From a virus, in IMG/VR virus record IMGVR_UViG_3300010300_004141, positions 1 to 24,764 of that record: a DNA stretch of 24,764 nucleotides; one strand, given 5' to 3'. A program made the translations under genes and the position numbers. The number at the start of each line of letters is the position of its first letter. Position 1 is the stretch's first letter. Under the pieces are notes generated by a model, which was given only the letters and a program-made list of their open reading frames with translations, searched no databases and was not told the DNA's origin. Below are positions 4,901 to 24,368 of the stretch, piece by piece.

Positions 4901-7900
4901 GAGTATTTTTTCTGCCTTTCTTAGTGAATCTAACGCGGTCATTTGCGAAATCAACCTTGGCGGAAACATTGTAACCATAGTTTGCTGTATCAACCAACTC
5001 TACGTCTGTGTCCCAAAAGAAGCCCTCAAAGCCTAACTTATCAAAACTTCTAGAAAAACTCTTGTCTCGGCGCCAATTATTTGTTGAAGAAAATCGCATA
5101 GACTGTACTGGTAAACTCGTTCTCTCATCGTATAAAGCGAACGAAAAGCCACCTCTTAATTCAGTATTAAAATCTGCTGGTCCATATGCAGGAGCAGATG
5201 CTTTGAGTCCTTGCCCTGCGCCGGCTGGATTAAATTGCTCATGTAGGTATCCTGCAATCCACTGTGGGTATGCACCGCGTACATCACTAAAAAATAACCA
5301 GTTTATTACTCTAATGATGATCTGTAAAGGAAAGAGTATTGCCCATACGAGTAGCGCGCCAAGCCAGCCCGGTATTGCAAACGGGCTGCCCGGAGGAGAT
5401 GGTGGCCCCTCCCACACATCCTCACTAGGCTCCCCATAAAAGGACACCCAACGAGCATTTGCTGCAACCTTATCTTGATGGACAGTCCAAGGATTTCCAT
5501 ATGTATCTGAAAGGACCATGTTGAAAAATCCCCAATCATCTTGATTGTCGAAAAGAGAAAAGCCTCCATCAGCTAACATATCTGACGCAAACATCATTTC
5601 TATTCTCTTTACATCGCCCTCAACGGTGAGCATTGCTGCTTCTTTTAATTCTTCCGGCTCATATGGAAGCATTCCATTATTACACCCAGGATCAGAGAAA
5701 ACCGGGGGCATGTTAGCCTCAATCATATTTGGAAGTCCTAATTGTAGCGTCTTAGCAATGTCGTCCAGATCTTCAAGTAGCTGTCCTCTCGCGCTCTCAT
5801 TTAAAGCCTCACACTGAGCGGGAGACATTCTGCCTTCCAAAAGTGAGCATCTTTGTTGTTCAAAAAGCTGGAGTTCCTCCGGAGTCGAACACATAGACGG
5901 GTTTGCTGGAGTACCCAATTCTTCTGGGAACGCCTCAAGAATATCTCTCATGTCTGCTCTTGTTTGTGCCGGAATTAGTACACCAACATTTTTAAAGAAA
6001 CTTGAGAGCGCTGGTTTTCCTGGGAAAGCATCACGATATTCTGGGTAGTCAAACTCAATAATATTGTCCATCAAATCAAGCGCAGTGTCTGATGGTCCAT
6101 CCAGAAAGGCTCCTAACACCTCTTCTCTCGTCATTGTATTGATTGAGTCAGCAAAGAAGTTTACTGCTGTTTCTCTGTCTGCTAAAGCAGCACCACCGAC
6201 ACCAAGTTGTTCAACAAGAGAGACAACTGTATCCTCAACTGTTTGCTGGTCAGCGTCGGGTCCGCAGATGGTATCTCTAATAACTCCATACAAAGACTCT
6301 CTTCCGCTTAACAAGGCAGGAAGAGAACCAGCTATAGCGCCGACAGTTTCTAACGCCTTACAAATAGCATCTGCAATGATTTCGCAAACCTTTGCGAGAA
6401 TCATCAAAAGAATCTTCATAAGCAACATTATCAGCAGCTTTTTCAATACTGCAAAAATTAAACCGAGGATATCACTTATTTTTGGCCATGCACGGAAAGG
6501 GTTTTCCAATCTTATTGATACGATGGGCGTAGGTTGATTGCAGAACGGAAGGGTTAGACTCTTAATAAAGTCCATAATACCGGGATTAAACAACGGAGGT
6601 GTTGGACAGTCGAACAACGCTATAACTGCTGAAATAAGCTGGGCGCCTGGGAATGCGCTTAAATGGTCCAAAAGTGCGAGATAATTATCTTCATATACTT
6701 CGATCAAAGCCAACACATAAGCATCTAAAACAACGCTTGGATCCAACCCATCCTTCGATGCAGACGAGGGTCCACCAAGTTTTTGTGCTAGTGTTCTTCT
6801 TTCTTGTGTTGGGTCATAGCCAGAAATACTTTTAGATGCTTGTGTGTCTCCAAATGGACCGGGGCGGGCTATTGCTTGCTGGTGTGCTACAAACTCTTCG
6901 TTCTCCCATGGTTTTTCGATTTTGAATCCGCCCCAGAATGGTGCATCTTCAGCAGCAGGAGAACGGTCACTTAAGTTTTTAAATGGTTTTCCTTCTCGTA
7001 AATTCTTTCTTACTAGTGCATCTAGTTCTGCTCTTTTATCTGGAGGCAGCCCAACGAATAGGGCACCAAAGTCCTCAACTCCCATCGCTTTGAGAGCAGT
7101 TAATAAAATTCTACCAAGAGCTTGTTCTAAGGTTAAGCCTTTAAACAAACACTCTATCGCTTCAAAAAGCAAATCAAACAAACCGCAATATGTTAATGGA
7201 CCAAGACCGTGACGGTACAATGAATCTAATTGCGCCATACCCATTCCACCAAAGCCGGCGCCCAACAACGCTCTCTTACACATATTAATAAAAATGGGAT
7301 CTTTTTCATTAACTGTGAAAAAGTTTTGCATTTGTGACTGGGCTTGCATGTTGAATAGATCTGTGAATGTAGTTCCAGGCTCCAGTCCTTGTGCGGCTAA
7401 GTCTTTTCTTACTTCATCTGGATTTGAACGACAAAGTGACTCATGGAATTGTTTAGCAATTGCGTCTCCAATGCTAAACACTTCGTCAAAAATGTCCTGT
7501 CCAAGTTCTTTGAATTCGTTTTCAAGATTGTTAGCCACACAATCGCTGATGTTAGGCTTGCCCACTGGACCTTCCGCAGGTTGATAAACATAAATTTCTG
7601 GATATGTATGCTCTTGCAAAAAGTCCAACCAAGGCTTTGGTCGTCGGGCTTCTGCATCACGAATCATGTTCTTCTGGTTAGCAAAATATGCTACGGCTGT
7701 TCTATCTCTCCAGCCACTTTGTCTTCTTAAGGTAGCAAGTCTTCTTTGTTTGTATACGGCGGCAGGTTTGTCTCTACAGCCTTGAGTATACACTTCCAAT
7801 TTTTTGATTCTGTATTGACCACTAAACACCATTCGCATTTTAGTTATAAGTTCATCAGAACTGAAAAAATCAAAAAAGCCTACGCCAAGTGTATAACCTC

Positions 7901-8714
7901 TACCAGCCAACCAGTTGTCTAATTGATTATAAGTATCCGCTAAAATACCATTACCAAAAAGACCGTTATCGCCGTAATCTCCAAGGTTGAATATTCTATC
8001 AGTTTTCTTAAATTTTAGATTACCACCCTCTGTGGCTCTGTAAACCTTGAGATATCTATTGTAGAGATCTAATGTTTTCCTTAGCTTAACGATATCACTA
8101 TTGATATTAGCAGCCATCATTGTTATTACTATGTCGTCCGCTTCGGCTTCCTCCTCATCTGTATCAGAGAAATCATCTTCAATAGGAGGCAAATCATAGA
8201 TGTAATCAAAATCTATTGAATAAAGCAATTTAAGTCTTGAGCCGGCTCTTGCCTCAAGATAAAAATCTGTATAATCTGTTACTTTTAGAAGATTCTGTAT
8301 TGTCTCGCGAGAGTCGTCTTTCTGAAAATATTCGACGAGTGTTTGCACTGCTTGATAAGCGTATTTATCGTAAAGAGATTTTAAGACAGCGTCTGCTTCT
8401 TCATCCGTCATACCTTCCAAGAAGCCAGTCGTTGTCTCAGGAGTAACGTAGGTTATTTGATACTTACAGCTTTTTTCATTAAGAATGGGGTTCAACTGGT
8501 TTCTATTGCGCCAATTTGAAACGATCGAATATGGATTTGGTATACACTGTCTACATTTTTGAATTGGGATTGGTCCATCGGCACACACATCATCGATACC
8601 ATCGCCATTCTTATCTTGAAATCTGATGAATGGAGATTGCGCACGAGGCGTCATTTCCATCTCGTTAGATGGGACCATAGTCTTATTAAATGTTACAAAT
8701 TTATCTTCAGCCAT
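1905..8714 (-). CDS. Giant virion structural protein (2269 aa), function unknown
   Basis: A 2269-aa protein between spike-like and gp25-like baseplate genes, so almost surely a virion or tail component. I do not recognise a family with a known role. Visible features: a Ca-binding-type loop DKNGDGIDD at residues 34-42 (D34, N36, D38, D41/D42), like EF-hand or thrombospondin type-3 loops; a CxxC at 54-57; an acidic run at about 180-195; two strongly hydrophobic stretches at about 745-790 (rich in LLIMLLMKILLMILA) and about 1113-1142 (LLVWAILFPLQIIIRVINW), long enough to span a membrane; and a GEYHTHIDIDGELIYMAGAEH segment-like motif near residue 1883, with paired His. The ATG is set by AGGA (8721-8724) that overlaps the upstream stop codon, spacer 6 nt. 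It may be a tail fibre, baseplate plate or tape/ejection-type protein; the hydrophobic stretches would fit membrane interaction during infection, but this is speculation. Confidence 0.8.
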   Translation of the reverse strand: MAEDKFVTFNKTMVPSNEMEMTPRAQSPFIRFQDKNGDGIDDVCADGPIPIQKCRQCIPNPYSIVSNWRNRNQLNPILNEKSCKYQITYVTPETTTGFLEGMTDEEADAVLKSLYDKYAYQAVQTLVEYFQKDDSRETIQNLLKVTDYTDFYLEARAGSRLKLLYSIDFDYIYDLPPIEDDFSDTDEEEAEADDIVITMMAANINSDIVKLRKTLDLYNRYLKVYRATEGGNLKFKKTDRIFNLGDYGDNGLFGNGILADTYNQLDNWLAGRGYTLGVGFFDFFSSDELITKMRMVFSGQYRIKKLEVYTQGCRDKPAAVYKQRRLATLRRQSGWRDRTAVAYFANQKNMIRDAEARRPKPWLDFLQEHTYPEIYVYQPAEGPVGKPNISDCVANNLENEFKELGQDIFDEVFSIGDAIAKQFHESLCRSNPDEVRKDLAAQGLEPGTTFTDLFNMQAQSQMQNFFTVNEKDPIFINMCKRALLGAGFGGMGMAQLDSLYRHGLGPLTYCGLFDLLFEAIECLFKGLTLEQALGRILLTALKAMGVEDFGALFVGLPPDKRAELDALVRKNLREGKPFKNLSDRSPAAEDAPFWGGFKIEKPWENEEFVAHQQAIARPGPFGDTQASKSISGYDPTQERRTLAQKLGGPSSASKDGLDPSVVLDAYVLALIEVYEDNYLALLDHLSAFPGAQLISAVIALFDCPTPPLFNPGIMDFIKSLTLPFCNQPTPIVSIRLENPFRAWPKISDILGLIFAVLKKLLIMLLMKILLMILAKVCEIIADAICKALETVGAIAGSLPALLSGRESLYGVIRDTICGPDADQQTVEDTVVSLVEQLGVGGAALADRETAVNFFADSINTMTREEVLGAFLDGPSDTALDLMDNIIEFDYPEYRDAFPGKPALSSFFKNVGVLIPAQTRADMRDILEAFPEELGTPANPSMCSTPEELQLFEQQRCSLLEGRMSPAQCEALNESARGQLLEDLDDIAKTLQLGLPNMIEANMPPVFSDPGCNNGMLPYEPEELKEAAMLTVEGDVKRIEMMFASDMLADGGFSLFDNQDDWGFFNMVLSDTYGNPWTVHQDKVAANARWVSFYGEPSEDVWEGPPSPPGSPFAIPGWLGALLVWAILFPLQIIIRVINWLFFSDVRGAYPQWIAGYLHEQFNPAGAGQGLKASAPAYGPADFNTELRGGFSFALYDERTSLPVQSMRFSSTNNWRRDKSFSRSFDKLGFEGFFWDTDVELVDTANYGYNVSAKVDFANDRVRFTKKGRKNTPDIVLTYRDNGKGYRSGWNKLGDYFGGSPAQWGFGYEVRAFYQDLVKKDENIFNRSDDCVRVEVMTAINVNSAYGLGNPSISTGQENEALSNGGDLEDPGVITSQRFEFLSVDDTLDHVDLIDFPLLASSFETQKTMSPPVLGLVDMINLSERENGITTNIGDGQAQTLYDTINQQFFEDFATEIYNNDTGWLFGATYPNYTRKDFEYGVTLDAELARFNGGDDKIGTWVPWWNLKVSDGEGGETFVWMSDEAFLGISYNAHVNRNNPEKIGVFYLEPAKYGGSYNFPPVYAKPPPNTGWTGMLDIMFPEQSPRTCKNKQEGITGFGEVQKMVRDTYASLSEDDRINGDPDCTREVPFDRILTRTGKSAIRGLIMAGIRCFANVEIMRGLGTFTTFAPDFEENYSKMYSGFIVEIMKESFMTTGGNWLNPFNDNEFWYAFLEMSVQYYIDRLDDPNDEYITLENMSDSIRAALERIDRLQKNYKYPWDFDDFNSEDYGTFESMKSFRESKNLEAVKRVEDEAKLILQELVHEQLVAVGKLFIKNAGRGGLSPKYVNMNYYFFNKYCAGGENLALHGEHKFRVKKDSLPTSGYGHYSTGDQLALPSGDPYVGEYHTHIDIDGELIYMAGAEHNEVEEQDRLIPFAHELEVVSTKEVVTQDGNKFSVSGSEELLGDIMPASDTSKNFYLAKYILIDGIKYNNEEGVNTVRSNRGFISDNFPGDMRLIKEQIIRDDQVIGEGRPIGVTGNLGVEYMLEFGMINPGSSQKIPMASTKMSAVDVECARFIGIEANSKILWCLINQLQHEPRYRFVVDYIFSMKKSLSLLAMYNSLGLTPSIGEWVTPSGTLKSPKLPNPAEGAIDTLFGTPPKEKPGMYVTGYEWDPDTKSYIATTDAVPGWLSEDDRNSWFSSFGYLDYDEWDQEILRKTTRYMKNAFHTHYRNRKWTPPDYGGRDPVAEFVSGLTSKFRFNPAYKILPSFQKKQARGNVFDANGNECKKKG

Positions 8715-12788: not shown

Positions 12789-13043
12789 TTATTTCTCCTG
12801 TAAAGATTGTATATCGTATTCACTTAACGTTATTATATCATTAAATTCGTTTCTGTATACTTCAAAATTTGTATACTCAAACACACTCCCATCGGGTGAA
12901 TTGTATGAGTATTCTTTAATATCAATTATTACCCCAACACCGACATTCTTGATAGCAATACCATCAGCGTATCTTTCGTGCCAAGTAATAAGTTGTCCTT
13001 TGGAAAATTTACTATTTTGCGCTGGCTTTGAGGTCTTCGTCAT
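12789..13043 (-). CDS. Small protein of 84 aa, SH3-like strand pattern, function unknown
   Basis: The product shows alternating hydrophobic strands ([41 protein letters not shown]), which would fit a small SH3/KOW-like barrel. That is a pattern reading, not a family match. Its ATG (13041-13043) lies inside the end of gmd, a 32-nt overlap, with AGGA 6 nt upstream. Its stop is 1 nt before the next start. It sits at the boundary between the sugar operon and the small late genes. The Shine-Dalgarno and coupling make it credible despite its size; no function can be given. Confidence 0.62.
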
Positions 13044-13998
13044 ACATCATCCTAGCCAGTTCTTTGAACTTGACTTTTGGTTCCCATCCAAGCTGTTCCT
13101 TGGCTTTTGTGGGGTCTCCTAGCAGAAGAGGTACCTCGTGAGGTCTAAACAGCCTCTCGTCTATCTCAACGTATTTAGAAACGTCTAAACCAGCATAGTC
13201 AAACACTTCGTGAAGAAACTCTTCAACAGTGTGCGTCTCGCCAGTTGCAATAACATAGTCATCTGGGTTTTCTTGTTGTAGCATTAGCCACATTGCTTCC
13301 ACATAGTCGCCTGCAAAACCCCAGTCGCGCTTGGCTTCAAGGTTACCAAGATATAATTTATCTTGCTGTCCTAGACGAATACGAGCAGCAGCCTTTGTGA
13401 TCTTTCGTGTTACAAATGTTTCGCCGCGGCGGGGGGACTCGTGGTTAAACAGAATACCGCTAGAAATGTGCATACCATAACTTTCTCGGTAGTTTCGACA
13501 AAGGTTATGGGCAAACACCTTAGCGCAAGCGTAAGGCGAAGCAGGCATCAAACGTGTGGCTTCTGACTGTGGGTTCTCTGGGTTGTCGCCAAACATCTCG
13601 GAGGACGATGCTTGATAGATCTTCACATCAGGACAAATGTTTCTGGCTGCCTCTAAAAGCCTAAGAGTACCCATACCAACTATCTCAGCAGTTTCCTCTG
13701 GTGTATCAAATGAGACTCGGACGTGCGACTGGGCGGCTAGGTTGTAGATTTCATCTGGTTTGTGGTCCAGAAGTAGGCGATGGATGTTTCCAGCATCAAT
13801 CATATTTCCATAAACTAAACTAAAATTGTCCATCTTTTCTAAGTCTGAAAATACATGATCGATCCTATCTGTGCTGATAAGCGATGTTCTTCTTTTGACT
13901 GCTACAACCTCGTAGCCTTTATCTAGTAGCAGATCGACCAAATACGAGCCGTCTTGACCCGTGGCGCCTGTTACTAATGCTTTCTTTTGTTTGCTCAT
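13012..13998 (-). CDS. gmd: GDP-mannose 4,6-dehydratase
   Basis: A 328-aa extended-SDR enzyme that converts GDP-D-mannose to GDP-4-keto-6-deoxy-D-mannose with bound NADP+. The nucleotide loop [10 protein letters not shown] is at residues 11-20. The catalytic ASSSEMFG stretch (S131-E134) and YACAK (Y156, K160) follow, with Gmd-specific segments [16 protein letters not shown] (86-101) and [16 protein letters not shown] (184-199). Length is slightly under that of bacterial Gmd (about 350-370 aa) but all key motifs are present. Its ATG overlaps the stop of fcl as ATGA, and the product is the substrate of Fcl, so the two form a full GDP-L-fucose branch. GDP-mannose must come from the host or from genes outside this window. 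The product could also feed rhamnose or perosamine, but fcl next door argues for fucose. Confidence 0.95.
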
Positions 13999-14891
13999 TT
14001 ATTCTCCGAATACCATTGGTATGTTTTGTGTACTCCATCTCTAAAACTAGTGAAGTCGAATGGTCCTATGAGTTCTAGTAGACGACCGTTGGAACCGTCT
14101 TTACGGAACTGTCCATCCATATTCCCATTAAATAATGTTCTCACATTTTTGCCTGTTTGTTCAACCAAAGTTCTGGTCATTTCCAAGATAGAAAGGTTTT
14201 CATTTGGTGCAACTATCAAAGGAATGCTAGTGTTGTGCTTTTCAAGTAATATAGGAATGATCTTGCATAGGTCATCAACATACAACTGTTGTCGTAAAGG
14301 CATTCCAGTTCCCCACATCTCTACGATATCACCATCAGTTGCGTTGTATATTTTGTGTATAAGTGCTGCTACAAAGTGTGATGCTTGACTTCCGAAATGG
14401 TCTTCTGGTCCATATATGTTTGACGGACAAAACGTAGAATAGTTCATATTATATTGTTCACGATAAGCGCAAGACGATACGTGAAGCATTCTCTTCGTCA
14501 TTCCATATGAAAAGTTTGTTATTGTTGGCGGACCATTGAAAAATTCTTCTTCAACAAACGGAAAGAACGTTACTTCTTCTGGAAACGCGCATGTGCTCAA
14601 AGATGAAAGAACGCGAGGAATACCAGCCTTGTACGCCTGATGAATAACATTTGTGTTCATCATTGTGTTAATGTGATAAAAGTCTGCTTGGTTTTCTATG
14701 TTGTCTTTGATGCCACCAACACGTGCAGCCAAATGCAAAACAGCATCTGGCTTTGTGTCTCCGAATAGTTGCTTTACTTGTTCGGGATTGGTTAGGTCGC
14801 AGTCTTTAGAAGAGATGTAAGTCCAGTCTGGTTTCGACAACTTAAGTCTTCGTCCAAGAAAACCGCTACCTCCGGTTACCACAGTCGTCAT
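13995..14891 (-). CDS. fcl: GDP-L-fucose synthase
   Basis: A 298-aa extended-SDR enzyme that epimerises C3/C5 and reduces C4 of GDP-4-keto-6-deoxymannose to GDP-L-fucose with NADPH. The cofactor loop is TGGSGFLG at residues 6-13. SLSTCAFP at 97-104 holds the catalytic Ser99 and Cys101. YGMTK gives Y129 and K133, and SH at 171-172 aligns with the catalytic His179 of E. coli [14 protein letters not shown] and the GGIKDN segment are also family-typical. It is a little shorter than E. coli Fcl (321 aa). The gene starts 26 nt after the SIS gene with AAGGAT as Shine-Dalgarno and overlaps gmd by 4 nt. It provides the second step of a complete de novo GDP-fucose pair. Confidence 0.94.
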
Positions 14892-14917: not shown

Positions 14918-15523
14918 TTAAAGTGGCTCCCAAGATTCCTCGGTTGATTTTCTTAGTGGGGAATCTGCGAGCCTGTCTTTCTCTTGCCTAATCGATGGAC
15001 AATGGTTACCTGTTCGATGAATAAGATCGTAGAAAATCATGAGAATAGATACTTCTACAGTGTGGAAATAATTGCATTTAATCGGCAACTCATCGATGTC
15101 GTCTCTCAATACCTCGGAATCAGCGCCACTAATCAAAAATGTAGCAAATCCTTTGTCTTCACCCCAGTGTAGTGTGTCGATAACATTTCCAGAGTTACCA
15201 GAACATGAGAGCCCAATAATTAAACACTCCTCTGGATTTTCAACACTTGCGATTGTCTCCAACCACCTGATAAAGATCTGGTTATATCCATGATCGTTAG
15301 CGTTGGATGTAATAAACCCAACACTGTCGAAGGAATAGACTGCTTTATTAGGTATCAGTCGTGATAAATCTGTTGCCATATGACTCGCAACATAGTGTAA
15401 CCCGCCATTACCAATAAGAAATATCTTCTTAGCATTGTTTACTTTTTCCACCAGAATAGCATATTCGTCGCTAGCGGCTGCGGCGTTACACTTGTCCTCG
15501 ATGTTTTCAAAATCTATTAACAT
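14918..15523 (-). CDS. SIS-domain sugar isomerase-like protein, GmhA-like but atypical
   Basis: A 201-aa protein with the SIS phosphosugar-binding fold. The GNGG loop is at residues 38-41, TSNANDHGYNQIF (72-84) resembles the GmhA segment TATANDxGYxxIF, and CSGNSGNV (107-114) is the phosphate-binding signature. GmhA converts sedoheptulose 7-phosphate to D-glycero-D-manno-heptose 7-phosphate using zinc bound by His61, Glu65, Gln172 and His180 (E. coli numbering). By eye, H48 stays but the Glu becomes D52 (HMATD), and the C-terminal Gln/His pair falls on V156 and F164. The usual active site therefore seems lost or changed. It overlaps the aminotransferase gene by 7 nt. It could act on another sugar phosphate, or bind one without catalysis. 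The fold is certain, the substrate is not. Confidence 0.85.
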   Translation of the reverse strand: MLIDFENIEDKCNAAAASDEYAILVEKVNNAKKIFLIGNGGLHYVASHMATDLSRLIPNKAVYSFDSVGFITSNANDHGYNQIFIRWLETIASVENPEECLIIGLSCSGNSGNVIDTLHWGEDKGFATFLISGADSEVLRDDIDELPIKCNYFHTVEVSILMIFYDLIHRTGNHCPSIRQEKDRLADSPLRKSTEESWEPL

Positions 15524-16686
15524 TGTTCCATTGTTCCTTTAAAAATTTGGAGTGCGTGGTCAACCTCATTCTCATTCAAATTTAAATTTGGTCTTAATCT
15601 GATCGATCTAACACCCGTTTTGTTACAAATTAGTCCGTTTTTATACAACTTTTCTACCAATATATCACGTTTTTGAGAATTTGGTAAATCAAATCCTATA
15701 ATTAATCCACAATTTCTTAAATTTAGTATTCCATCTATATCAGATAACCCATGGACCAAAGTGTTACTTTGTTTGTTTACATTATCCAGTATGTTGTCTT
15801 CTTCATATGCTTTCATAATATATTTGCATCTTACCATATCAGATATATCACCATCCCAAGTAACTTCAAGCCTGATAGAGTTTTGTGCGCTGAACATCTC
15901 TCCGTACTTTTCTTGTGCCATAATCCCAGAAAGTTGTGTTTTCTTGCCGAATATAACAATGTCTGGTTCGATACCTAAATGTTCGTAGTACCAAAGCTTA
16001 CCCGTGCCTCCGAAACCAACTTGAATTTCATCAAACACAAGAGGAACGTCATGTTTGGTGCATGCCTCTCTTAGGGCTTGGAAAAACTGCTTGTCAAAGT
16101 AGACATCTCCGGCACTGCATTGTATAGGCTCAACAATCAAGCAGGTAACGTCGGTTCTCCCAAGGGTCCTGTGTACTTCTCTAATATCTGGGTATATCTT
16201 TGTCGAGTAAGCCTCTGGAAGACCATCTAATCTAGCATCGGCGCCGGGGAACCTTGAAGTCACAAAACCGCCATAACCATTTATACCGTGAAAGCTGTTG
16301 TTGAAAGATACGACATTTAAGGTGTGGTATTTTTTGTACTGTAGGCATGTCTTGATTGCTGCTTCAACCGCTAGTGCTCCTGTGCAGGAATAGTGAAAAT
16401 GTGAGAAGCGACCCTTTCCAGCATATTCACTAAACATTCTATCAAATTCTTCAGTCTCATCCGATACAAACTCACAGTTGTTGATCTTATATTTTGATAC
16501 TCTCAAGTACTCTTCTATAAACTCCGGTGTGGAGAATATAGGGTGACTATAACCCAAGGGCAACGAGGCATACATCCCAAAAAAATCTAGATATTCTCTC
16601 TGTGTTCTTTTGTCAAACAGATAAGAATCGTGACTTTTTTCAAAATCTACCTTAATATTAAATTTAGTGCTTCGTGCTATAGACAT
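15517..16686 (-). CDS. PLP-dependent class III aminotransferase
   Basis: A 389-aa fold-type I PLP enzyme of class III, which moves an amino group to a ketone or aldehyde. Family marks: the glycine-rich CTGALAVEAAIK (101-112), FHGINGYGG (132-140), the PLP-ring Asp in VFDEIQVGFGGTGK (D219), and a FGKKTQLSG segment with the Schiff-base Lys at 248 or 249. FGKKTQ followed by a Gly is typical of the L-lysine epsilon-aminotransferase branch rather than the GSA aminomutase branch. Start ATG overlaps the cyclase stop by 10 nt and the stop overlaps the SIS gene by 7 nt, so it is tightly coupled to both. In this setting I infer an amino sugar or aminocyclitol substrate, or a lysine-derived group added to the glycan; sequence alone does not tell. 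Confidence 0.88.
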   Translation of the reverse strand: MSIARSTKFNIKVDFEKSHDSYLFDKRTQREYLDFFGMYASLPLGYSHPIFSTPEFIEEYLRVSKYKINNCEFVSDETEEFDRMFSEYAGKGRFSHFHYSCTGALAVEAAIKTCLQYKKYHTLNVVSFNNSFHGINGYGGFVTSRFPGADARLDGLPEAYSTKIYPDIREVHRTLGRTDVTCLIVEPIQCSAGDVYFDKQFFQALREACTKHDVPLVFDEIQVGFGGTGKLWYYEHLGIEPDIVIFGKKTQLSGIMAQEKYGEMFSAQNSIRLEVTWDGDISDMVRCKYIMKAYEEDNILDNVNKQSNTLVHGLSDIDGILNLRNCGLIIGFDLPNSQKRDILVEKLYKNGLICNKTGVRSIRLRPNLNLNENEVDHALQIFKGTMEQC

Positions 16687-17750
16687 AAATTACCCGACAT
16701 GTATTCGTGGATGATATTTTTTAGTTCTCGATGATCGGTGATTTTTGTTACTCGTATGTCTCCGATACCATAAGGTAACACACAAACTATACAATTGCCA
16801 ACATTTTTCTTATCTTTCATCAACAGAGAGTAGTATTCTTCTTGTAAGTTTGCAGGAACTCTGTAATCAATCAGGTTCATCACTATTGCTGAATGCAATT
16901 GATCGTATTCATTTTTGTTGATAAAGCCTTTTCTGAGTGAAACATAGTTAGCCAAATTCATACCAATAGTCACTGCAAGACCGTGGGGTATTCGATAATT
17001 GCTTATCGATTCAATCGCATGACCAAATGTGTGTCCGTAATTAAAGACCCTTCTCTCGTTTTGATCAAACTCATCTCTCTCGATCATATTCTTTTTAATT
17101 CTCAAACTCTCAGCAACATATTTAGATAAATGACGCACAGGATCCAATAATATGTTATTGTAATCGCTAACAAAATTAAGAATAAGTTGACTATCTTCAA
17201 TCAGATAATAATGTAGTATCTCACCGATACCAGACTTAATATCATCAGTGCTCAGTGTCTTCAAAAACTCTGGGCAACAGTTAATATAAGATGGTGGATA
17301 GAACGTCCCTAATGAATTTTTTGTGTCTAAGAAATTTATAGAACTCTTACTCCCAATACAACTGTCTGCTTGGGCAAGCAATGTTGTAGGCATAAACTCC
17401 CACTCAACACCGCGATAAATAACAGATGCAGTAAAAGCAGTAACATCTTGAGTTATACCGCCGCCAATTGCTAATAACTTATGGTTTCTCTTGAAATTGC
17501 TAGAAATCAAAAAACTTATTATTTCTTCACAAGTTTTGAGTGTTTTTGTTTGTTCGCTTGCTTCGATGATGTACATATTTGATGCATCAAAGTATTGTTT
17601 AAATATAGGATATTTCTTGTATATATTTGAATCGATTATGATGCGCGTACTGTCATCATAGGAACTCAATAGTTCTTTGTTTAGATTGCAGAAATCCACT
17701 GTGTATTCTCTTCGATATGACTTAATCTTCAGTGAATCAATCTCAAACAT
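16677..17750 (-). CDS. Sugar-phosphate cyclase, 3-dehydroquinate synthase-like
   Basis: A 357-aa member of the dehydroquinate synthase/sugar-phosphate cyclase superfamily (AroB is about 360 aa). GGGITQD is the NAD loop at residues 96-102. PTTLLAQADSCIGSK (121-135), K144/N145, E177 (SGIGEILHYY), FNYGHTFGHAIE with H240/H244, and H256 (IPHG) are the NAD, phosphate and metal sites. DHQS converts DAHP to dehydroquinate, but the superfamily also holds enzymes acting on sedoheptulose 7-phosphate (2-epi-5-epi-valiolone type) and glucose 6-phosphate (2-deoxy-scyllo-inosose). Here the segment after the catalytic Lys is SSINFLD where DHQS has TGVNHPL, so a different substrate is possible. Being inside a sugar operon with aminotransferase and SDR genes, and not in a shikimate set, also points away from AroB. 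It overlaps the SDR gene by 8 nt. Confidence 0.85.
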   Translation of the reverse strand: MFEIDSLKIKSYRREYTVDFCNLNKELLSSYDDSTRIIIDSNIYKKYPIFKQYFDASNMYIIEASEQTKTLKTCEEIISFLISSNFKRNHKLLAIGGGITQDVTAFTASVIYRGVEWEFMPTTLLAQADSCIGSKSSINFLDTKNSLGTFYPPSYINCCPEFLKTLSTDDIKSGIGEILHYYLIEDSQLILNFVSDYNNILLDPVRHLSKYVAESLRIKKNMIERDEFDQNERRVFNYGHTFGHAIESISNYRIPHGLAVTIGMNLANYVSLRKGFINKNEYDQLHSAIVMNLIDYRVPANLQEEYYSLLMKDKKNVGNCIVCVLPYGIGDIRVTKITDHRELKNIIHEYMSGNLCL

Positions 17751-18459
17751 TTACAAACCCACCATCAACAATTATGTTTTGACCTGAGATGTATGAGTTC
17801 AGTTCGCTTGCTACAAATAAAACTGTTTTTGAAATCTCTTCTGGTTCTGCCATGCGGCCCATGGGAATGTTTTGTGATATTTCCTGCATTTTCTCTGAAC
17901 CAAGTACTTGCCGAGTTAAGTCAGTCAGTGTAAATCCGGGCGACACAGTGTTAACAAGTACATTAAATTGCGCTAATTCAGCCGCGGAGGCTAGTGTAAG
18001 ACCTCGTAAGCCAAACTTACTGGTAGAGTAGCAGGCGCGCTCAGCAATGCTGATAGAACCCCATATAGAGGATATATTCACTATTTTGCCGTAGCGTTGC
18101 TTAATCATGCTTGGAGCAACTGCCTGCTGCACAAGAAATGGGGCCGTTAAGTTAACTTTCATAATGTTGTTCCAATCCTCTCGTTCAACATCACAAAATG
18201 AATCAATCTTATTTATCCCAGCATTGTTTATGCAGACATCGTATGTTCGGTTTGAAATTTCTTCAATAAACCTATTTGTATTGTCGTCATCCAGAAAGTC
18301 TACCTGCATATATTCCACACCTGTGAAATCGACTTCAGGGCTTCGTCCAGTGATAGTAACATCCGCACCGAGTTCTAGCATATCTTTGGCAATCTGCCTA
18401 CCAATGCCTCTGGTTCCACCCGTGACAAGGACTTTTTTGTTTTCAAAATCAATCTTCAT
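17743..18459 (-). CDS. Short-chain dehydrogenase/reductase (classical SDR)
   Basis: A 238-aa classical SDR that would oxidise or reduce a hydroxyl/ketone with NAD(P). TGGTRGIG at residues 13-20 is the cofactor loop. NNAG at 78-81, S131 (ISSIWG), and Y144/K148 (CYSTSK) make the catalytic triad. NTVSPGFTLT and the closing YISGQNIIVDGG are FabG-like. FabG-like proteins are found in many pathways, so family membership does not fix the substrate. The gene starts 11 nt inside the upstream DUF115/GT42-like gene and overlaps the cyclase by 8 nt. The order SDR, cyclase, aminotransferase suggests oxidation of a ring hydroxyl to a ketone, followed by amination, but that is inference. Confidence 0.9.
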   Translation of the reverse strand: MKIDFENKKVLVTGGTRGIGRQIAKDMLELGADVTITGRSPEVDFTGVEYMQVDFLDDDNTNRFIEEISNRTYDVCINNAGINKIDSFCDVEREDWNNIMKVNLTAPFLVQQAVAPSMIKQRYGKIVNISSIWGSISIAERACYSTSKFGLRGLTLASAAELAQFNVLVNTVSPGFTLTDLTRQVLGSEKMQEISQNIPMGRMAEPEEISKTVLFVASELNSYISGQNIIVDGGFVNV

Positions 18460-19258
18460 TTTCTTCTCTTATGATTTCATCAAAAGGGATATATCTAAAC
18501 ACTGAGTTAAGAGGTGAACCGGGGGTAGCAGATATAACTTCTGGTGGAATAAGGCCGGCTTCGGAGAATGCTTCGTTTAGTAAACTGATTACTTTCTCCC
18601 ACGGCTCAGTAGTAATGTTTTCGCGAGAAGGCGGCCCATGAGTTCTGCTTTCATTAAATGACTCTACATCAAAATACTTTGGATGGAAGTGCGACAGGTC
18701 CTCTCCGGATTCTACGCTTTCTTTCCAATCAACATATTTTAGATCCACCCCAAGTAAGACAACTCTCTCATACCCCATTAAAACAGACATAGCTGTAGCA
18801 AATACTCCACAATTCCCATATGCCGCGGTATGAACTATGGTTTTGCCTTCCAAAATTGAAAATTTATTATTTTCTCTATTATTGAGGAACTCTAATTTTT
18901 CTTCAGTAAACACACTTGAAAGTCTTTCAACCACCATAACATTTGTTTTACAATCAAACGGAGGATCTTGATATTTGTCGAGGTTGGTAAGTCCAGTTTG
19001 GTAGTTGTTTGAAAAAATATATTTACTGATACTACATTTATCATTGTTTATCATATTTGGCTCAACATCGTCTGCAAACACGGTTTTAATAAGATTACGA
19101 TCAATCATTGCGTAATAAGTTGGATAAAACCCCCAGTCTTCATAAGCAATATATTGTCTATTCATACTAAAAGTGTCTTTGTCTTTCAGTAAGCTCATGT
19201 CAATTTGTTTTAAAGAGGGCCCAGATCCAATTATAAATATTGTTTTATTTTTCGACAT
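18449..19258 (-). CDS. DUF115/MptE-like or GT42-like putative glycosyltransferase
   Basis: The ATG at 19256-19258 gives 269 aa; it has GGAG at 19268-19271 (9-nt spacer). A longer reading begins at a TTG (19345) inside the cupin domain and is not supported. Visible: FIIGSGPSLKQIDMS at residues 8-22, NRQYIAYEDW (33-42), HTAAYGNCGVFATAMSVLMG (143-162) and YERVVLLGVDLKYVD (163-177), and a late PGSPLNSVFR (246-255). The GxGPSLKxID start and the LGYkeIYLsGID-like middle are shared by DUF115/MptE-like proteins and GT42 sialyltransferases such as Campylobacter Cst-II. GT42 has a catalytic His near the C-terminus; H189-H191 or H207 could fill this role. It directly follows the CMP-sugar synthetase-cupin gene (14-nt overlap). 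The fold is plausible; the donor is unknown. Confidence 0.72.
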   Translation of the reverse strand: MSKNKTIFIIGSGPSLKQIDMSLLKDKDTFSMNRQYIAYEDWGFYPTYYAMIDRNLIKTVFADDVEPNMINNDKCSISKYIFSNNYQTGLTNLDKYQDPPFDCKTNVMVVERLSSVFTEEKLEFLNNRENNKFSILEGKTIVHTAAYGNCGVFATAMSVLMGYERVVLLGVDLKYVDWKESVESGEDLSHFHPKYFDVESFNESRTHGPPSRENITTEPWEKVISLLNEAFSEAGLIPPEVISATPGSPLNSVFRYIPFDEIIREENED

Positions 19259-20384
19259 TTTCCATATCTCCATCTGGGTAAACATGTGCGACATCTTCCC
19301 TGCTGACCGCAAGCCTGATTGCAGGCTTGTCTCCGGTGGCTTCAATCCTATGAACCACTCCCTTCTGGATGAATACTATGTCATCTTTTTTGATTAATTT
19401 CTTTTCGCCGGCAATCTCCCAAATCCATTCTCCGTCAATAATAAACCACCATTCATTCCAATCTGGGTGGTAGTGGCGACGGTTTCCTTGTCCGGGCTGT
19501 TGGTGAATAATGGTAGCACTGTTGTTTTCGGTGTTGACTACTCTGTGGCTCCACGATGTGCTACTATCAAAAGACGCTCTGATATCGTTAACACTGACGA
19601 TCTCCTTATTCGCATCATGCAAGTTATTATTCATCACCCCATCCTTTGCTAAGATTGATGGAACATCAACTTCCGAGTGTTCCTCGCCATAGTATTGTGG
19701 TGCATACTGTTCAGAGGATAGTGAACGTGCAACAACTTCTGCTAGCTGGAAATCCTCTTCGTTATCAACGTCAACAATTGCAAAACCATCAAGTGTGTAA
19801 AATCCGATGTTTCCATCTCCACCATGGTATCCGCAATCATATTTACTCATATTGTTCATATAATTTTCAGTTCTCCAGCCCATCAATCCACACGCATAAG
19901 GTTGAATTGGTGTCAAGTCTTGCGAGGGAGGAGACAGTTTCTTTTGATCAAAGTTAATCGGACTACCGTTGTATACACATTCAATTTGCTGGTTTGTAAC
20001 AGATATAAGTGTATCTAGGTTGTCATCAATCATCTTTCTGGTGAAGCTTTCAATATCGTCTTTTGATATAAAAGGAGAGGTCGGTAGCAATTGAATAAGC
20101 ACATCGCAGTCAATATTGTTCATAAAGTCTGCTGTAAACTCATCGTTTGTTGCGCGATTCGTAGAAAGCGCATCTGGCCTTTTATAAAACTTTACTCCCT
20201 CTTCAAGCGCAATCTTGCCCAAGATGTCTGATTCAGAGTTAACGTAAATCTCATCAAAACAGTTTGCTGCTTTTGCTGCCCTGATAATATAGCTTATCAT
20301 TGGAACACCGTTTAGCAATCGAATATTCTTTTTTGGAATTCTAGTGCTGCCCATGCGAGCAGGAATCATTGCTACTGTCTTCAT
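19245..20384 (-). CDS. CMP-sugar synthetase fused to a cupin domain
   Basis: A 379-aa two-domain protein. Residues about 1-225 are a cytidylyltransferase of the NeuA/PseF type: IPARMGSTRIPKKNI at 7-21 is the CTP-binding start, QLLPTSPF at 98-105, and VDVDNEEDFQLAE (204-216) is close to the NeuA end motif. It would make a CMP-sugar from CTP and a 2-keto sugar acid such as a nonulosonate. Residues about 262-379 are a cupin: H304, H306 and E311 (RRHYHPDWNEWWF), then H345 (KGVVHRIE) form a likely metal site. The cupin could epimerise, isomerise or sense a sugar. No NeuB-type synthase is seen in the window, so the sugar is unknown. The ATG overlaps the GT29-like stop (ATGA, 20381-20384). Confidence 0.88.
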   Translation of the reverse strand: MKTVAMIPARMGSTRIPKKNIRLLNGVPMISYIIRAAKAANCFDEIYVNSESDILGKIALEEGVKFYKRPDALSTNRATNDEFTADFMNNIDCDVLIQLLPTSPFISKDDIESFTRKMIDDNLDTLISVTNQQIECVYNGSPINFDQKKLSPPSQDLTPIQPYACGLMGWRTENYMNNMSKYDCGYHGGDGNIGFYTLDGFAIVDVDNEEDFQLAEVVARSLSSEQYAPQYYGEEHSEVDVPSILAKDGVMNNNLHDANKEIVSVNDIRASFDSSTSWSHRVVNTENNSATIIHQQPGQGNRRHYHPDWNEWWFIIDGEWIWEIAGEKKLIKKDDIVFIQKGVVHRIEATGDKPAIRLAVSREDVAHVYPDGDMENVEK

Positions 20385-21256
20385 TTTCTCTTAATCAATC
20401 CTATTGTTTTTTTAAAGTTTTCTTCCAGATAATCATCTAATGTGAGTTTTCTGTCATAGTGAAAATAAACCATCTTGTGAAAATAATTTATTTGTGGAAC
20501 TTGTTGATGAATGTCAATCCGAAGATCTGCAAAATTGGGGATATTTTTTGATGCTTCGTTAAAATTACCATTTTTTAGAGCTTCCTCGTAATACTTCCCA
20601 TAATATACTTGCCCAAATGTGTTCATGTTGAAGAAGGTCATACCTGTAACGTATACTTCTTTTACATCATAGTTTAAAAGTGTTATGACACCCATCAGCC
20701 CAGTGTTGCAAGTAGTCCCCACTTCTTTGAATACTTTAAACAAATAACCATCACATACATTATGCCATGGTGTACCGGTTTCGTCAAGGAAATCGTTTAC
20801 TCTCTGAATATCCCACATGGATACCATCGGGCACACAATATATTTTAATGAGCGTGCGTAATCCATATTTTTGCGGAGTGCATTGATCTTGTTTATGTTG
20901 AGGCAGTTCATCAATATATCAGTCCGTTGACCGTAATCTTCCCAGTCTTCTTCGCGCATGTGGTATGCCTGATTAACTCTTACAACAAGATCATGAGAAT
21001 CAATATACTCTCCCATCTTCATTCCTTTCAAGTGAGGAGATGGGCAAACATAAGCGATTCTTTTGCCTTCGATTAATTTTGCTAACTGCTCATCCTTCAC
21101 GTAATCTCGGAATCCATCTACAAATGGTCCGCGTGAACCCAGGTCAGCCAATTGCAATTCTGGTCGTGGTGGAGATGAGCGCCATCGCGGCGCCTTCTTC
21201 GATAAAGGTATACCTATAATGGTCTTCTTCAATCCATTGTGCCATTCAGTTTTCAT
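20381..21256 (-). CDS. GT29 (sialyltransferase)-like glycosyltransferase
   Basis: A 291-aa protein with a sialylmotif L-like stretch at residues 66-98. RIAYVCPSPHLKG then MGEYIDSHDLVVRVNQAYH align with the CAVVGNSGxLxxS and IDSHDxVVRxNxA pattern of animal GT29 sialyltransferases. TTCNTGLMGVITLLN (181-195) and EVYVTGMTF resemble motif S. The motif-VS His/Glu is not clear; H250 or H260 could serve. GT29 enzymes use CMP-Neu5Ac-type donors. It overlaps the CMP-sugar synthetase by 4 nt and starts 3 nt after the dehydratase gene, so donor synthesis and transfer would be co-translated. GT29 is mostly eukaryotic, and relatives in bacteria and phages are few as far as I know. The family call is from motifs only. 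Confidence 0.75.
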   Translation of the reverse strand: MKTEWHNGLKKTIIGIPLSKKAPRWRSSPPRPELQLADLGSRGPFVDGFRDYVKDEQLAKLIEGKRIAYVCPSPHLKGMKMGEYIDSHDLVVRVNQAYHMREEDWEDYGQRTDILMNCLNINKINALRKNMDYARSLKYIVCPMVSMWDIQRVNDFLDETGTPWHNVCDGYLFKVFKEVGTTCNTGLMGVITLLNYDVKEVYVTGMTFFNMNTFGQVYYGKYYEEALKNGNFNEASKNIPNFADLRIDIHQQVPQINYFHKMVYFHYDRKLTLDDYLEENFKKTIGLIKRK

Positions 21257-21259
21257 TAT

Positions 21260-22210
21260 TCACCATATAAAATTATTTTTGTAATATTCTACGATGGACC
21301 TAATTTCATCATCAAAAACTTTTCTAGGAGACCACCCTAAGTTTCTCAATTTATCATCATTTAAAGCATATCGTACATCTTGTCCTTCACGAGAATATGA
21401 GAAATCGACATGTTCTTCCCATTTATAATCACTTTCATGATAACAGTCAATTACTTTTAATACTGTCTCAATATTTTTTTGTTCGAATCCACCGGCAACA
21501 TTATAGATCTCATTTACATTTCCGGAGTCTATAATAGCCATCACGGCTTCCGCAGTATCATCTGCATGAAGCCAATTTCTAACTGGAGTGCCCCCGTTGT
21601 GCAAGCGTATCTTTTTGTCTCTCATAAGGTTTTTAACAGACAGAGGTATAAGCTTTTCGGGATACTGTCCAATACCATAGTTATTCGTTGGTCGCAATAT
21701 GACGTATTCTAAGTCATAAGTCCTCGCCCAAGCAAGAACAAGCATGTCTGCCGCGGCTTTAGCGGCAGAGTAAGGGTTACTAGGATGAAGCAAATCTGTT
21801 TCCGTGTGCTCGCCTTCAACAATGTCTCCATATACCTCGTCGGTACTAAAATGGAAGAAAATTGGACGACGGTTACAATTAACGGGCTTATTTTTGATTA
21901 GATCGAGAAGGTTTTGTACGCCAACAATATTGCTGTTGATAAACTCTTTGCTATCAATAATACTGTTTCCAACATGAGATTCAGCGGCAGTGTTAATAAC
22001 ATAGTCACAGTCATATAGATGGTCTAGGTCTTTTATATCAACATTTAAATAATGAAAGTTGTCGTGAGCAAGAAACTCTTGTAACAAAGACCTGTTGGCG
22101 ACATATGTTTCCTTATCAATGCCGTAAACTTTCCAGCCGCGCTCAAGACACTTTCTAGTAACATACGAGCCTATAAAGCCTAGACATCCAGTCACATAAA
22201 CGAGTTTCAC
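21260..22210 (-). CDS. NDP-glucose 4,6-dehydratase (RfbB/RmlB-like)
   Basis: A 316-aa extended-SDR dehydratase that would form an NDP-4-keto-6-deoxyhexose. The NAD loop is GCLGFIG at residues 8-14. STDEVYGD (123-130) gives the catalytic T124, D125 and E126, and YSAAK gives Y148 and K152. LRPTNNYGIGQYPEKLIPL and GGTPVRNWLH are very close to RmlB. The start is GTG (22208-22210), not ATG, in a GTGA overlap with the preceding stop, and a strong GGGAG at 22218-22222 with a 7-nt spacer supports it. RmlB-like proteins act on dTDP-glucose; a CDP-glucose enzyme for the RfbH-type neighbour would be the same fold. The nucleotide specificity is not visible. Confidence 0.88.
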   Translation of the reverse strand: MKLVYVTGCLGFIGSYVTRKCLERGWKVYGIDKETYVANRSLLQEFLAHDNFHYLNVDIKDLDHLYDCDYVINTAAESHVGNSIIDSKEFINSNIVGVQNLLDLIKNKPVNCNRRPIFFHFSTDEVYGDIVEGEHTETDLLHPSNPYSAAKAAADMLVLAWARTYDLEYVILRPTNNYGIGQYPEKLIPLSVKNLMRDKKIRLHNGGTPVRNWLHADDTAEAVMAIIDSGNVNEIYNVAGGFEQKNIETVLKVIDCYHESDYKWEEHVDFSYSREGQDVRYALNDDKLRNLGWSPRKVFDDEIRSIVEYYKNNFIW

Positions 22211-23547
22211 TCAAAGTCTCCCAAAAAACCATCAACCGCTTCCTTGATATACTGAATCTTCTCGTCAGTCAGACCAGCATATGTCCCCAAGAAGAATGAG
22301 TTGGTTGTAACCAACTGAGCATTAGGGAATGTAACGTTCATGTCGCCATACTCCTCAGCCATGTGTATGTAACCGGGGTGAGCAAGAATGTTTCCAGAGA
22401 AATAAGATCTTGTTTGGATCTTGAAGCTTTCTAGGTGCTCAACAATATCGCTTCTGGAGAACGGTGCATCCTCTTTTACAGTCAGAAGAAAAGCAAACCA
22501 GCAAGGATCAGACTTTTCTGTTGCTTCTGGAATGTGAAAGAAACGCTCGTAAGGGGCGAATATTTGCTTCATCTTCTCCCAGTTAACCCTACGAGCACTA
22601 TCTAGCATCTCAAGCTTATCAAGCTGTTGCAGACCCATTGCAGCCTGTAAATCAAGCGGCTTGAGGTTATATCCAATTTCGTCAAAGACATAGCGATGAT
22701 CATACACGGCTTCCTTAAGCCCCGGCAACCAGTTCTTAAACCTGTTTCCGCATGCTGTCGCGCTTGTTACGTTTCCGGGCTTCTGCGTGTTGCAATAACA
22801 AGCACGACCCCAGTCACGAACACTAGCAAGAATAGTCTTTGTCCTCAAACTGTTTGTTGCGATAAAACCACCTTCACCCATCGTCATGTGGTGAGCAGGG
22901 AAGAAAGAGCAAGTAGACATATCGCCAAACGAACCAAGTTTCTTACCGTCGTAATAAGAACCAAGAGCATCACAGGCATCTTCTAAAAAGACAAGATCAT
23001 ACTTTTCAATAAGCGCCATCAAGCGGTCCATGTCTGGCGGGTTTCCAAGAACATGAGCAAACATAATTCCTCGGATGCTTGGGTCTGCCTCAAGGGCTTC
23101 CTCAACTTTGTCGAGGTCCAAGTTAACACTGGGCAACTCAACATCTACAAATACTGGAACCAAATTGTTTTGGATGATGGGGTTGATGGTTGTCGGAAAA
23201 CAAACAACTGGTGTAATGATTTTATCACCGTCTTTCAGTTGTTTCTTGAATCTATTGGACTTTGTAGCTGCAACCATAAGAAGGTTGGCGGAGCTTCCGG
23301 AGTTTGTGAGTGCTCCGTACAATTTTCCAAGCTTTGATGGAAACTTTTGCTCGAACTCACTTGCGTTCTTTCCAAAGATCATCCAACCGTCAAGCACTTG
23401 CCTAATAGCCGCAAGATATTCCTTATCGTCAAAGACCGGTCCAGAATAAGAAACCCAGTCTTGACCGGGTATCCACTTCTCGTTTTCTTGCTTCTCAGCA
23501 ACATACTCAGAAACTAAGTTTAGGATTTGCTCCAATTTTTCAGACAT
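22207..23547 (-). CDS. rfbH: RfbH-type NDP-4-keto-6-deoxyhexose 3-dehydrase (PMP, [2Fe-2S])
   Basis: A 446-aa DegT/DnrJ-fold protein, the length of RfbH/DdhC/E1. The PLP-Lys position carries His: SFFPAHHMTMGEGG at 214-227, with H219 at the Lys site, so it is a PMP-dependent dehydrase, not an aminotransferase. E1 binds [2Fe-2S] through a C-X57-C-X1-C-X7-C pattern. Here C192-X57-C250-X1-C252 fits exactly, and the fourth Cys is C266 (TACGNRF), with six extra residues in the loop. It removes the C3 hydroxyl of a 4-keto-6-deoxyhexose on the way to 3,6-dideoxyhexoses such as abequose or tyvelose, with an iron-sulfur reductase (RfbI/AscD). No reductase gene is visible. It overlaps both neighbours (28 nt and 4 nt). 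Confidence 0.9.
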   Translation of the reverse strand: MSEKLEQILNLVSEYVAEKQENEKWIPGQDWVSYSGPVFDDKEYLAAIRQVLDGWMIFGKNASEFEQKFPSKLGKLYGALTNSGSSANLLMVAATKSNRFKKQLKDGDKIITPVVCFPTTINPIIQNNLVPVFVDVELPSVNLDLDKVEEALEADPSIRGIMFAHVLGNPPDMDRLMALIEKYDLVFLEDACDALGSYYDGKKLGSFGDMSTCSFFPAHHMTMGEGGFIATNSLRTKTILASVRDWGRACYCNTQKPGNVTSATACGNRFKNWLPGLKEAVYDHRYVFDEIGYNLKPLDLQAAMGLQQLDKLEMLDSARRVNWEKMKQIFAPYERFFHIPEATEKSDPCWFAFLLTVKEDAPFSRSDIVEHLESFKIQTRSYFSGNILAHPGYIHMAEEYGDMNVTFPNAQLVTTNSFFLGTYAGLTDEKIQYIKEAVDGFLGDFE

Positions 23548-24368
23548 TCTTTTATACCCTTTTCTAGTCCAACGAGTTCGATATTTAATTCTTCCAGAAG
23601 AAAATTATCTCCGGTATAGGAATATGCAATCTCGTTAGACTTAATAATAACATCTTCGGTGTTATTTGTCAATCTTTTTATCATTGCAGCATGCTCGCTT
23701 AGTTTGTATTTTTCTCTGTAACACAGATTAAAGTCCGGTGACATTTCCCATATGTCGTGGTTTGCAATGATGTACTCGATAACACGACCGATATCCTGTG
23801 CGTAAAAATAGTCCATATACTTATCTTGGGTTATATTCGCGTTTATTCCCTTTGCAAAGTTTTCATAACATGTTTTAAACAACCTTTGTGGTTCTTCATG
23901 TACCCCAAAACATCCAAATAATCTTAAGTTATAGATATTGGTATCAAGTTCGTATATTCTTCTAGTTATTAAATTTTTTGATAAACCATACATGTCCACA
24001 GGATTTGATTTAAAAACATCTGTCTCTATAGAATTTTTGATATCAAACCTTCTATCAAATTCAGCACCAGAACCAAAATTAAACATTACTTGAAACTTGT
24101 TTGAGAATTTTGATAAATTATCAAACATTGCAATATTATCAAAAAAATTACTTGTGTTATCGAAATGCCCACGCTTTCCACCCTTAACAGCAGTGTGTAT
24201 AACAACATCTACGGTTACATTATCAAAAAAATCTTTTACATTCTCATAATCTGTAGGATCTAGCGTGCTTCTATCAGTGACCATCAAGGTGTATTGTTTT
24301 TTGTCCGAAAAATAGCGCACCATCTCTTTTGCAAGAAAACCCTTTCCTCCGGTGATTAAAACATTCAT
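23520..24368 (-). CDS. NAD-dependent epimerase/reductase (extended SDR)
   Basis: A 282-aa extended SDR. GGKGFLA at residues 7-13 is the NAD(P) loop, GSGAEFD (99-105) stands where the catalytic Ser/Thr lies, and MYGLSK gives Y127 and K131. Length is at the short end of the family. In 3,6-dideoxyhexose clusters, an SDR next to RfbH (RfbJ or RfbS) reduces the 4-keto group to abequose or paratose; the position directly before the RfbH-like gene fits that step. It could also be a C2 or C5 epimerase. The gene is markedly more AT-rich (about 30% GC in sampled lines) than the RfbH-like gene (about 50%), a hint of different origin. It overlaps the glycosyltransferase stop as ATGA and the RfbH-like gene by 28 nt. 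Confidence 0.82.
   Translation of the reverse strand: MNVLITGGKGFLAKEMVRYFSDKKQYTLMVTDRSTLDPTDYENVKDFFDNVTVDVVIHTAVKGGKRGHFDNTSNFFDNIAMFDNLSKFSNKFQVMFNFGSGAEFDRRFDIKNSIETDVFKSNPVDMYGLSKNLITRRIYELDTNIYNLRLFGCFGVHEEPQRLFKTCYENFAKGINANITQDKYMDYFYAQDIGRVIEYIIANHDIWEMSPDFNLCYREKYKLSEHAAMIKRLTNNTEDVIIKSNEIAYSYTGDNFLLEELNIELVGLEKGIKECLKNWSKS

Follow-up and report, generated by a model that had tools for sequence, protein, structure and literature searches.

A GT29-like transferase gene beside a CMP-sugar synthetase-cupin fusion in a sugar operon of a T4-like phage

The window analyzed here is the whole of a single IMG/VR contig (IMGVR_UViG_3300010300_004141; 24,764 bases) and contains a run of sugar genes on the minus strand. 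Within this run, a gene for a cytidine monophosphate (CMP)-sugar synthetase fused to a cupin is flanked on one side by a gene for a GT29-like protein and on the other by a gene for a DUF115/GT42-like protein (Table 1). The initial annotation, made from the DNA letters without database searches, had described three overlapping minus-strand genes at this place. The genes were located as described, with overlaps of 4 nucleotides (nt) between the GT29-like and synthetase genes and 14 nt between the synthetase and DUF115-like genes, but the interval ended too early. The operon runs on past the DUF115-like gene, which overlaps the next gene by 11 nt, through four overlapping or abutting donor genes encoding an SDR oxidoreductase, an AroB-like cyclase, a class III aminotransferase, and a SIS protein. 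Both motifs pointed out at that stage, IDSHDLVVRVNQ in the GT29-like protein and GSGPSLKQID in the DUF115/GT42-like protein, are present.

The GT29-like protein scored above the curated cut-off of PF00777 (29.6 bits; cut-off, 23), and all 22 of its close relatives matched this family (E<0.1). A family profile searched against the PDB matched ST3Gal1 (E = 3e-6) and ST6Gal1. The AlphaFold2 model of the protein (pLDDT, 91.7; pTM, 0.92) was compared with the PDB using Foldseek; ranks 1 to 30 were occupied entirely by mammalian GT29 enzymes (best E, 1.7e-6; probability, 1.00), with the GT42 enzyme CstII next and the MptE pyrophosphokinase (M. jannaschii HPPK) after it. Because the Pfam score lies above the cut-off, the relatives match without exception, the model is confident, and the first 30 structural ranks agree, membership of the GT29 family and fold is solid, and the proposed GT29-like identity is confirmed by profile search, structure prediction, and comparison with mammalian sialyltransferase structures. 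The TM-scores to GT29 structures were only moderate, at about 0.4 to 0.5, and the protein is therefore regarded as a distant branch.

Sialylmotif L was found at approximately residues 64 to 120, where it can be aligned to ST3Gal1 and ST6Gal1; its VGNS element reads VCPS or VGPS, the first Asn being Pro in nearly all relatives. An S-like motif (residues 184 to 205) and a motif III-like Y218 follow, with N184, G186, and Y218 conserved, although the HMMER alignment of this S/III region to ST6Gal1 is weak and has a negative score. The VS-like motif is D248-x-H250-xxxx-Q255 (pattern D-[IL]-H-xxxx-Q), its His invariant in 22 aligned relatives. Of 47 phage homologs in the wider set, nearly all likewise have HxxxxQ at this site in place of HxxxxE. 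The catalytic residues listed for the mammalian enzymes are H319 of ST3Gal1 and H370 of ST6Gal1 (PMC4202792), to which H250 would correspond as inferred from motif order. The phage protein has in common with the GT29 sialyltransferases ST3Gal1, ST6Gal1, ST8SiaIII, and ST6GalNAc2 and with bacterial GT29 (PMC5811610) the fold, sialylmotif L, the VS histidine, and, less certainly, the S-like and III-like motifs. It differs from the sialyltransferases in having VCPS for VGNS and HxxxxQ for HxxxxE and in showing no apparent N-terminal membrane anchor in its sequence, and from known GT29 members in being phage encoded and adjoining a NeuB-free donor module. Since the first Asn of motif L and the Glu of HxxxxE are both replaced, we regard the protein as a putative GT29-like transferase of a divergent branch and make no claim that it transfers sialic acid; the function "sialyltransferase" suggested earlier is not retained. 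In three related loci (L007, 7131-8840; L008, 7122-8840; L021, 6070-7980), GT29-like domains are fused behind N-terminal domains of ~290 to 365 residues whose type is unassigned; here and below, the related contigs are fragments, and loci are labeled L plus a number.

The synthetase contains CTP_transf_3 at residues 4 to 121 (72.1 bits; cut-off, 22.6) and Cupin_2 at residues 293 to 359, both assigned by Pfam. In an alignment of 19 sequences, the cytidine triphosphate (CTP) motif RxGSxR..KN, TSPF, and the DxD metal site were invariant, as were the cupin metal ligands H304, H306, E311, and H345. The CTP site is thus intact. Two close relatives (L009 and L011) encode the synthetase and the cupin as separate, adjacent open reading frames (ORFs), whereas both Pfam domains lie in one ORF in the window; since the halves also occur apart, the fusion is natural. 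The best NCBIfam match of the synthetase was PseF (92.3 bits, under the equivalog cut-off of 205.7), the KdsB cut-off was also well missed, and the solved structures matched were NeuA and CMAS. Compared with the CMP-ulosonate synthetases NeuA, PseF, and KdsB, the phage enzyme is alike in the CTP-binding motif, TSPF, and DxD but carries a C-terminal cupin and falls far under the PseF and KdsB equivalog cut-offs; its setting differs as well, the close phage group being without NeuB and a KdsA-like gene being rare.

In 23 of 27 contigs, the gene immediately upstream of the synthetase-cupin gene is the GT29-like one, in most cases with an overlap or at a distance of up to ~5 nt. Once near-copies were removed, about 20 distinct contigs showed this arrangement, and this recurrence, together with the PF00777 score, makes it more than chance. 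Among 52 loci with a fused synthetase, a SIS gene was present in 49, an aminotransferase gene in 47, a GT29-like gene in 41, and both SDR and cyclase genes in 28; the SDR gene accompanied the cyclase gene in 28 of the 28 cyclase-bearing loci. The idea that the donor is simply drawn from the host, as had been considered, is not supported, since enzymes for earlier steps (SIS, AroB-like or HAD-like, SDR, and aminotransferase) accompany the synthetase. For the synthetase, cyclase, aminotransferase, and SIS, pairwise identities correlated with one another at 0.62 to 0.81 but with those of GT29 at only 0.23 to 0.39; the pairs are not independent, so these values are descriptive. Correlations that are strong among the donor genes and weak with GT29 fit a donor pathway that is stable and is bordered by a transferase open to exchange.

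The second flanking protein shares the GSGPSL motif and fold with GT42 (CstI/CstII) and DUF115/MptE/Maf proteins but differs from both in being encoded by an optional and variable gene across the phage loci. Its longest, TTG-started ORF extends to 19345. The proposed DUF115- or GT42-like identity held at the level of fold: a family profile searched against the PDB matched GT42 structures only, and CstII was the best Foldseek match (1.3e-6) of a lower-confidence model (pLDDT, 73), followed by M. jannaschii HPPK (MptE; 4e-4) and Maf (8e-4). It did not reach either Pfam cut-off, scoring 32.1 bits against 34.6 for MptE-like/DUF115 (PF01973), which 11 of 11 relatives matched at E<0.1, and 17.8 bits against 25 for GT42 (CST-I). 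H190 of an HF motif was nearly invariant among the relatives, and His188 of CstII was not clearly matched. The gene was found in 11 of 28 contigs at 26 to 39% identity and in varying positions, and a single-sequence DUF115 scan of IMG/VR returned no matches. The three genes originally put forward were accordingly rejected as a unit, since most relatives lack the DUF115-like gene or have it elsewhere. This gene is an optional one that changes place, its product best seen as a candidate accessory second transferase, and the unit consists of the GT29 gene, the synthetase-cupin gene, and the SIS/cyclase/SDR/aminotransferase operon.

Among the donor enzymes, the SIS protein matched phosphoheptose isomerase in the PDB (3e-13), and the closest solved structures of the aminotransferase were Lys epsilon-aminotransferases. 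The cyclase passes TIGR04425 and falls under the aroB equivalog cut-off (267 bits; cut-off, 305). It has the metal ligands, GHTFGHAIE, and family in common with the sugar phosphate cyclases (DHQS, DOIS, EEVS; TIGR04425). At the position of Lys197 (DHQS numbering), a His was present in 12 of 12 aligned phage-type homologs, which together with the aroB score sets the enzyme apart from DHQS. The window cyclase keeps K250, R264, N268, and the DKK motif, unlike two annotated sedoheptulose-7-P cyclases, and is not EEVS-like at N268 or DKK. Identification as EEVS or as a plain DHQS was rejected because the residue pattern fully fits neither.

Loci without the cyclase and SDR genes usually carry a small HAD-like ORF with the motifs DFDG, Thr/Ser, Lys, and DD. 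Across 79 related loci, 31 had the cyclase, 36 had the HAD-like phosphatase, and none had both; the remaining 12, several of them incomplete, had neither. The best tree implied about six switches between the two, as if cyclase and HAD-like protein were alternative routes to a phosphate-free compound before CMP activation. The absence of a visible NeuB-type synthase, also remarked on initially, extends to the close relatives, with NeuB in 0 of 22 contigs of up to 165 kb, and contrasts with 5 of 36 wider contigs that do have it. A second type of cassette occurs in phages (L128 to L152); it comprises a free cupin, an SDR, a CMP transferase encoded separately, and a protein in which SIS and HAD are fused, and a GT29-like gene is often close by.

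The contig is assigned to a phage because it encodes a gp25-type baseplate wedge protein and because a T4-type gp23 capsid protein is encoded in 9 of the 22 related contigs, in agreement with the T4-like setting assumed from the start. Since Flavobacterium phage immuto has the closest named gp23 (49% identity over 40% of the protein) and no psbA-type gene was found in the 22 contigs, the host is probably a member of the Bacteroidota, as judged from these sequences; a cyanophage host was rejected on the same two observations.

GT29 was long regarded as an animal sialyltransferase family. Its occurrence in bacteria was reported in 2018 in a text in which viruses go unmentioned (PMC5811610), and our literature search for phage GT29 found no report in the papers covered; what is new here is the phage setting of GT29 rather than its presence in prokaryotes. 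Among 50,697 phage records, no relatives of the window GT29 were found; a distant GT29 match is present in the isolate Stenotrophomonas phage DLP6 (hypothetical protein AMQ65952; L163, 8040-8828; KU682439.2), which scored 31.8 bits with PF00777, above the cut-off. When 84,980 genomes were scanned with two short patterns, a single match was obtained, on a 13.9-kb contig (JACAFS010000027.1; L022, 1-13864) of a Thaumarchaeota metagenome-assembled genome; exact agreement with both patterns was required, so more distant relatives in cells would have escaped the scan. This contig has phage gene order and a GT29 identity of 74% and was the only one among 151 Thaumarchaeota genomes to pass TIGR04425; it is probably a misbinned phage, and a host-derived origin of GT29 was rejected on these grounds, within the reach of this exact-pattern scan.

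From the computed domain identities, GT29 fold, intact CTP site, conserved linkage, NeuB rarity, and mutual exclusion of cyclase and HAD-like genes, we propose, with a probability of roughly 0.55, that this is a phage glycan-modification operon in which a NeuB-free route leads to an unusual, probably aminated CMP-donor that is used by the GT29-like transferase on a host surface glycan. We infer the order of the steps, the substrate and product, the amination of the donor, its use by GT29, and the host-surface target. The SIS protein would isomerize a sugar phosphate, which the AroB-family cyclase and SDR would convert with loss of phosphate, the HAD-like phosphatase taking their place in sister loci. 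The class III aminotransferase would then add an amino group, and the synthetase-cupin would activate the aminated product with CTP. Finally, the GT29-like protein would transfer the CMP-donor to an acceptor, most likely a glycan on the surface of the infected host, itself probably a member of the Bacteroidota, with the DUF115/GT42-like protein as an optional second transferase; such a surface change could, for example, alter receptors against superinfection.

Several points weigh against this proposal. The compounds activated by known synthetases of this family are ulosonic acids, which bear a carboxylate, and a route to an ulosonic acid free of NeuB or KdsA is not obvious. In DHQS, K250 and R264 bind the substrate carboxylate, and the phage cyclase retains both positions, which argues for an acid substrate. 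TIGR04425 has neither a known substrate nor a known product, and a literature search on it yielded nothing relevant. The wider contigs with NeuB are joined by 4 of 36 with a KdsA-like gene above the cut-off, and because the contigs are fragments, the absence of NeuB from the others is not proof. The HAD-like ORF is known by its motifs alone, with no Pfam match; strongly supported branches underlie only two of the cyclase/HAD switches; the linkage counts include near-identical contigs; and the surface as target is guessed. A carbocyclic donor is a speculative form of the proposal: a CMP-activated aminocyclitol or carba-sugar made by the AroB-family cyclase would be transferred by the GT29-like protein, and HAD-type loci would by the same logic make a CMP-activated simple sugar. 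We hold this form to be rather doubtful.

It is unlikely that the synthetase instead activates a host-made ulosonic acid (Pse, Leg, Kdn, or Kdo), added by the GT29/GT42-like enzymes while another sugar is the product of the SIS, cyclase, SDR, and aminotransferase. The PseF match, the resemblance to NeuA and CMAS structures, and the few related contigs with NeuB or KdsA would suit such a scheme, whereas the shortfall of the PseF score (92 bits against 205.7), the co-occurrence of the synthetase with SIS (49 of 52 loci) and with the aminotransferase (47 of 52), and the lack of NeuB throughout the 22 close-group contigs speak against it. We consider it quite improbable that two pathways share the operon, with the cyclase, SDR, and aminotransferase making an aminocyclitol-type decoration for other transferases, apart from the CMP donor. 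Another pathway (dehydratase, RfbH, and epimerase) is clearly in the cluster and TIGR04425 has no known product, but the cyclase and HAD-like phosphatase substitute for each other next to the same synthetase and aminotransferase, and these genes are correlated in their pairwise identities. That the GT29-like protein is no glycosyltransferase but some other CMP/CTP-binding enzyme of the superfamily, such as an MptE-like or phosphotransfer enzyme moving a phospho-group, is very unlikely, since the Foldseek ranking (GT29 throughout ranks 1 to 30, then CstII above HPPK), the invariant VS His, and the genetic linkage to a CMP synthetase outweigh the presence of M. jannaschii HPPK among the structural matches, the Pro in motif L, and the HxxxxQ form of VS.

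Phage GT29 members, dozens of them in uncultured relatives of this phage, beside a proposed dedicated, NeuB-free CMP-donor pathway broaden the range of groups that GT29 may transfer and of compounds that CMP may activate, and the operons are small and testable. A donor other than a nonulosonate would represent a new class of activated sugar, directly useful in glycan engineering; if the donor is a carbocycle, both this class of CMP-donor and the GT29 reaction would be ones not known in cells. The proposed operon also points to remodeling of the host surface by T4-like phages that probably infect Bacteroidota. Lipopolysaccharide (LPS)/O-antigen gene clusters thought to have this role are carried by marine phages of T4-like type, namely pelagimyophages and cyanophages (PMC7029224). 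The present operon is like these in placing glycan genes in large T4-like marine phages; it differs in that sialyltransferases go unmentioned there and GT8 is named as the main glycosyltransferase family of pelagimyophages.

Table 1. Genes of the operon and other features of the window
Feature	Positions	Strand	Evidence or remark
GT29-like transferase, 291 aa	20381-21256	-	PF00777, AlphaFold2, Foldseek
CMP-sugar synthetase (CTP_transf_3) with C-terminal cupin, 379 aa	19245-20384	-	Pfam, alignment
DUF115/MptE-like, GT42-like protein, 269 aa from internal ATG	18449-19258	-	Candidate accessory second transferase
SDR oxidoreductase, FabG-like	17743-18459	-	adh_short_C2, 175 bits
AroB-family sugar phosphate cyclase (TIGR04425)	16677-17750	-	TIGR04425, 410.6 bits (above cut-off of 400)
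Pyridoxal phosphate (PLP) class III aminotransferase, lysine-6-aminotransferase-like	15517-16686	-	Aminotran_3, 196 bits
SIS-domain sugar phosphate isomerase, GmhA-like	14918-15523	-	gmhA, 62.9 bits (cut-off, 209)
NAD-dependent sugar epimerase/reductase, labeled Fcl	13995-14891	-	Syntenic neighbor, conserved in relatives
NAD-dependent nucleotide-sugar dehydratase, labeled Gmd	13012-13998	-	Syntenic neighbor, conserved in relatives
Nucleotide-sugar 4,6-dehydratase, neighboring deoxysugar pathway	21260-22210	-	TIGR01181, 295.6 bits (cut-off, 365)
RfbH-type 3-dehydratase, neighboring 3,6-dideoxyhexose pathway	22207-23547	-	NF011936, 480.9 bits (above equivalog cut-off of 423)
NAD-dependent epimerase/reductase, neighboring deoxysugar pathway	23520-24368	-	Epimerase, 71 bits
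gp25-type baseplate wedge gene	1493-1861		Phage marker

Beyond the GT29-like gene, the dehydratase, RfbH, and epimerase genes (21260-24368, minus strand) point to synthesis of a 3,6-dideoxyhexose; a gene for glucose-1-phosphate cytidylyltransferase was not noticed in the window. A 2,269-residue ORF (1905-8714, minus strand) adjoins the gp25-like gene and had no PHROG match. The nearest plasmid relatives of the synthetase, at 35 to 37% identity, were found in Leisingera, Sinorhizobium fredii, and Paenibacillus, where they adjoin genes for SIS, an IMPase-type phosphatase, Gfo/Idh, and a 2-hydroxyacid dehydrogenase, with no recognized NeuB; the S. fredii and Paenibacillus genes were named from ORF translations. 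This bacterial plasmid module (CMP transferase, SIS, IMPase, Gfo/Idh, and 2-hydroxyacid dehydrogenase; L047, L048, and L049) lies in surface-polysaccharide-type regions and, like the second phage cassette and the Streptomyces genes named next, counts in favor of the proposed route. On a Streptomyces plasmid, genes for a sedoheptulose-7-P cyclase, a cupin, and a class III aminotransferase are adjacent.

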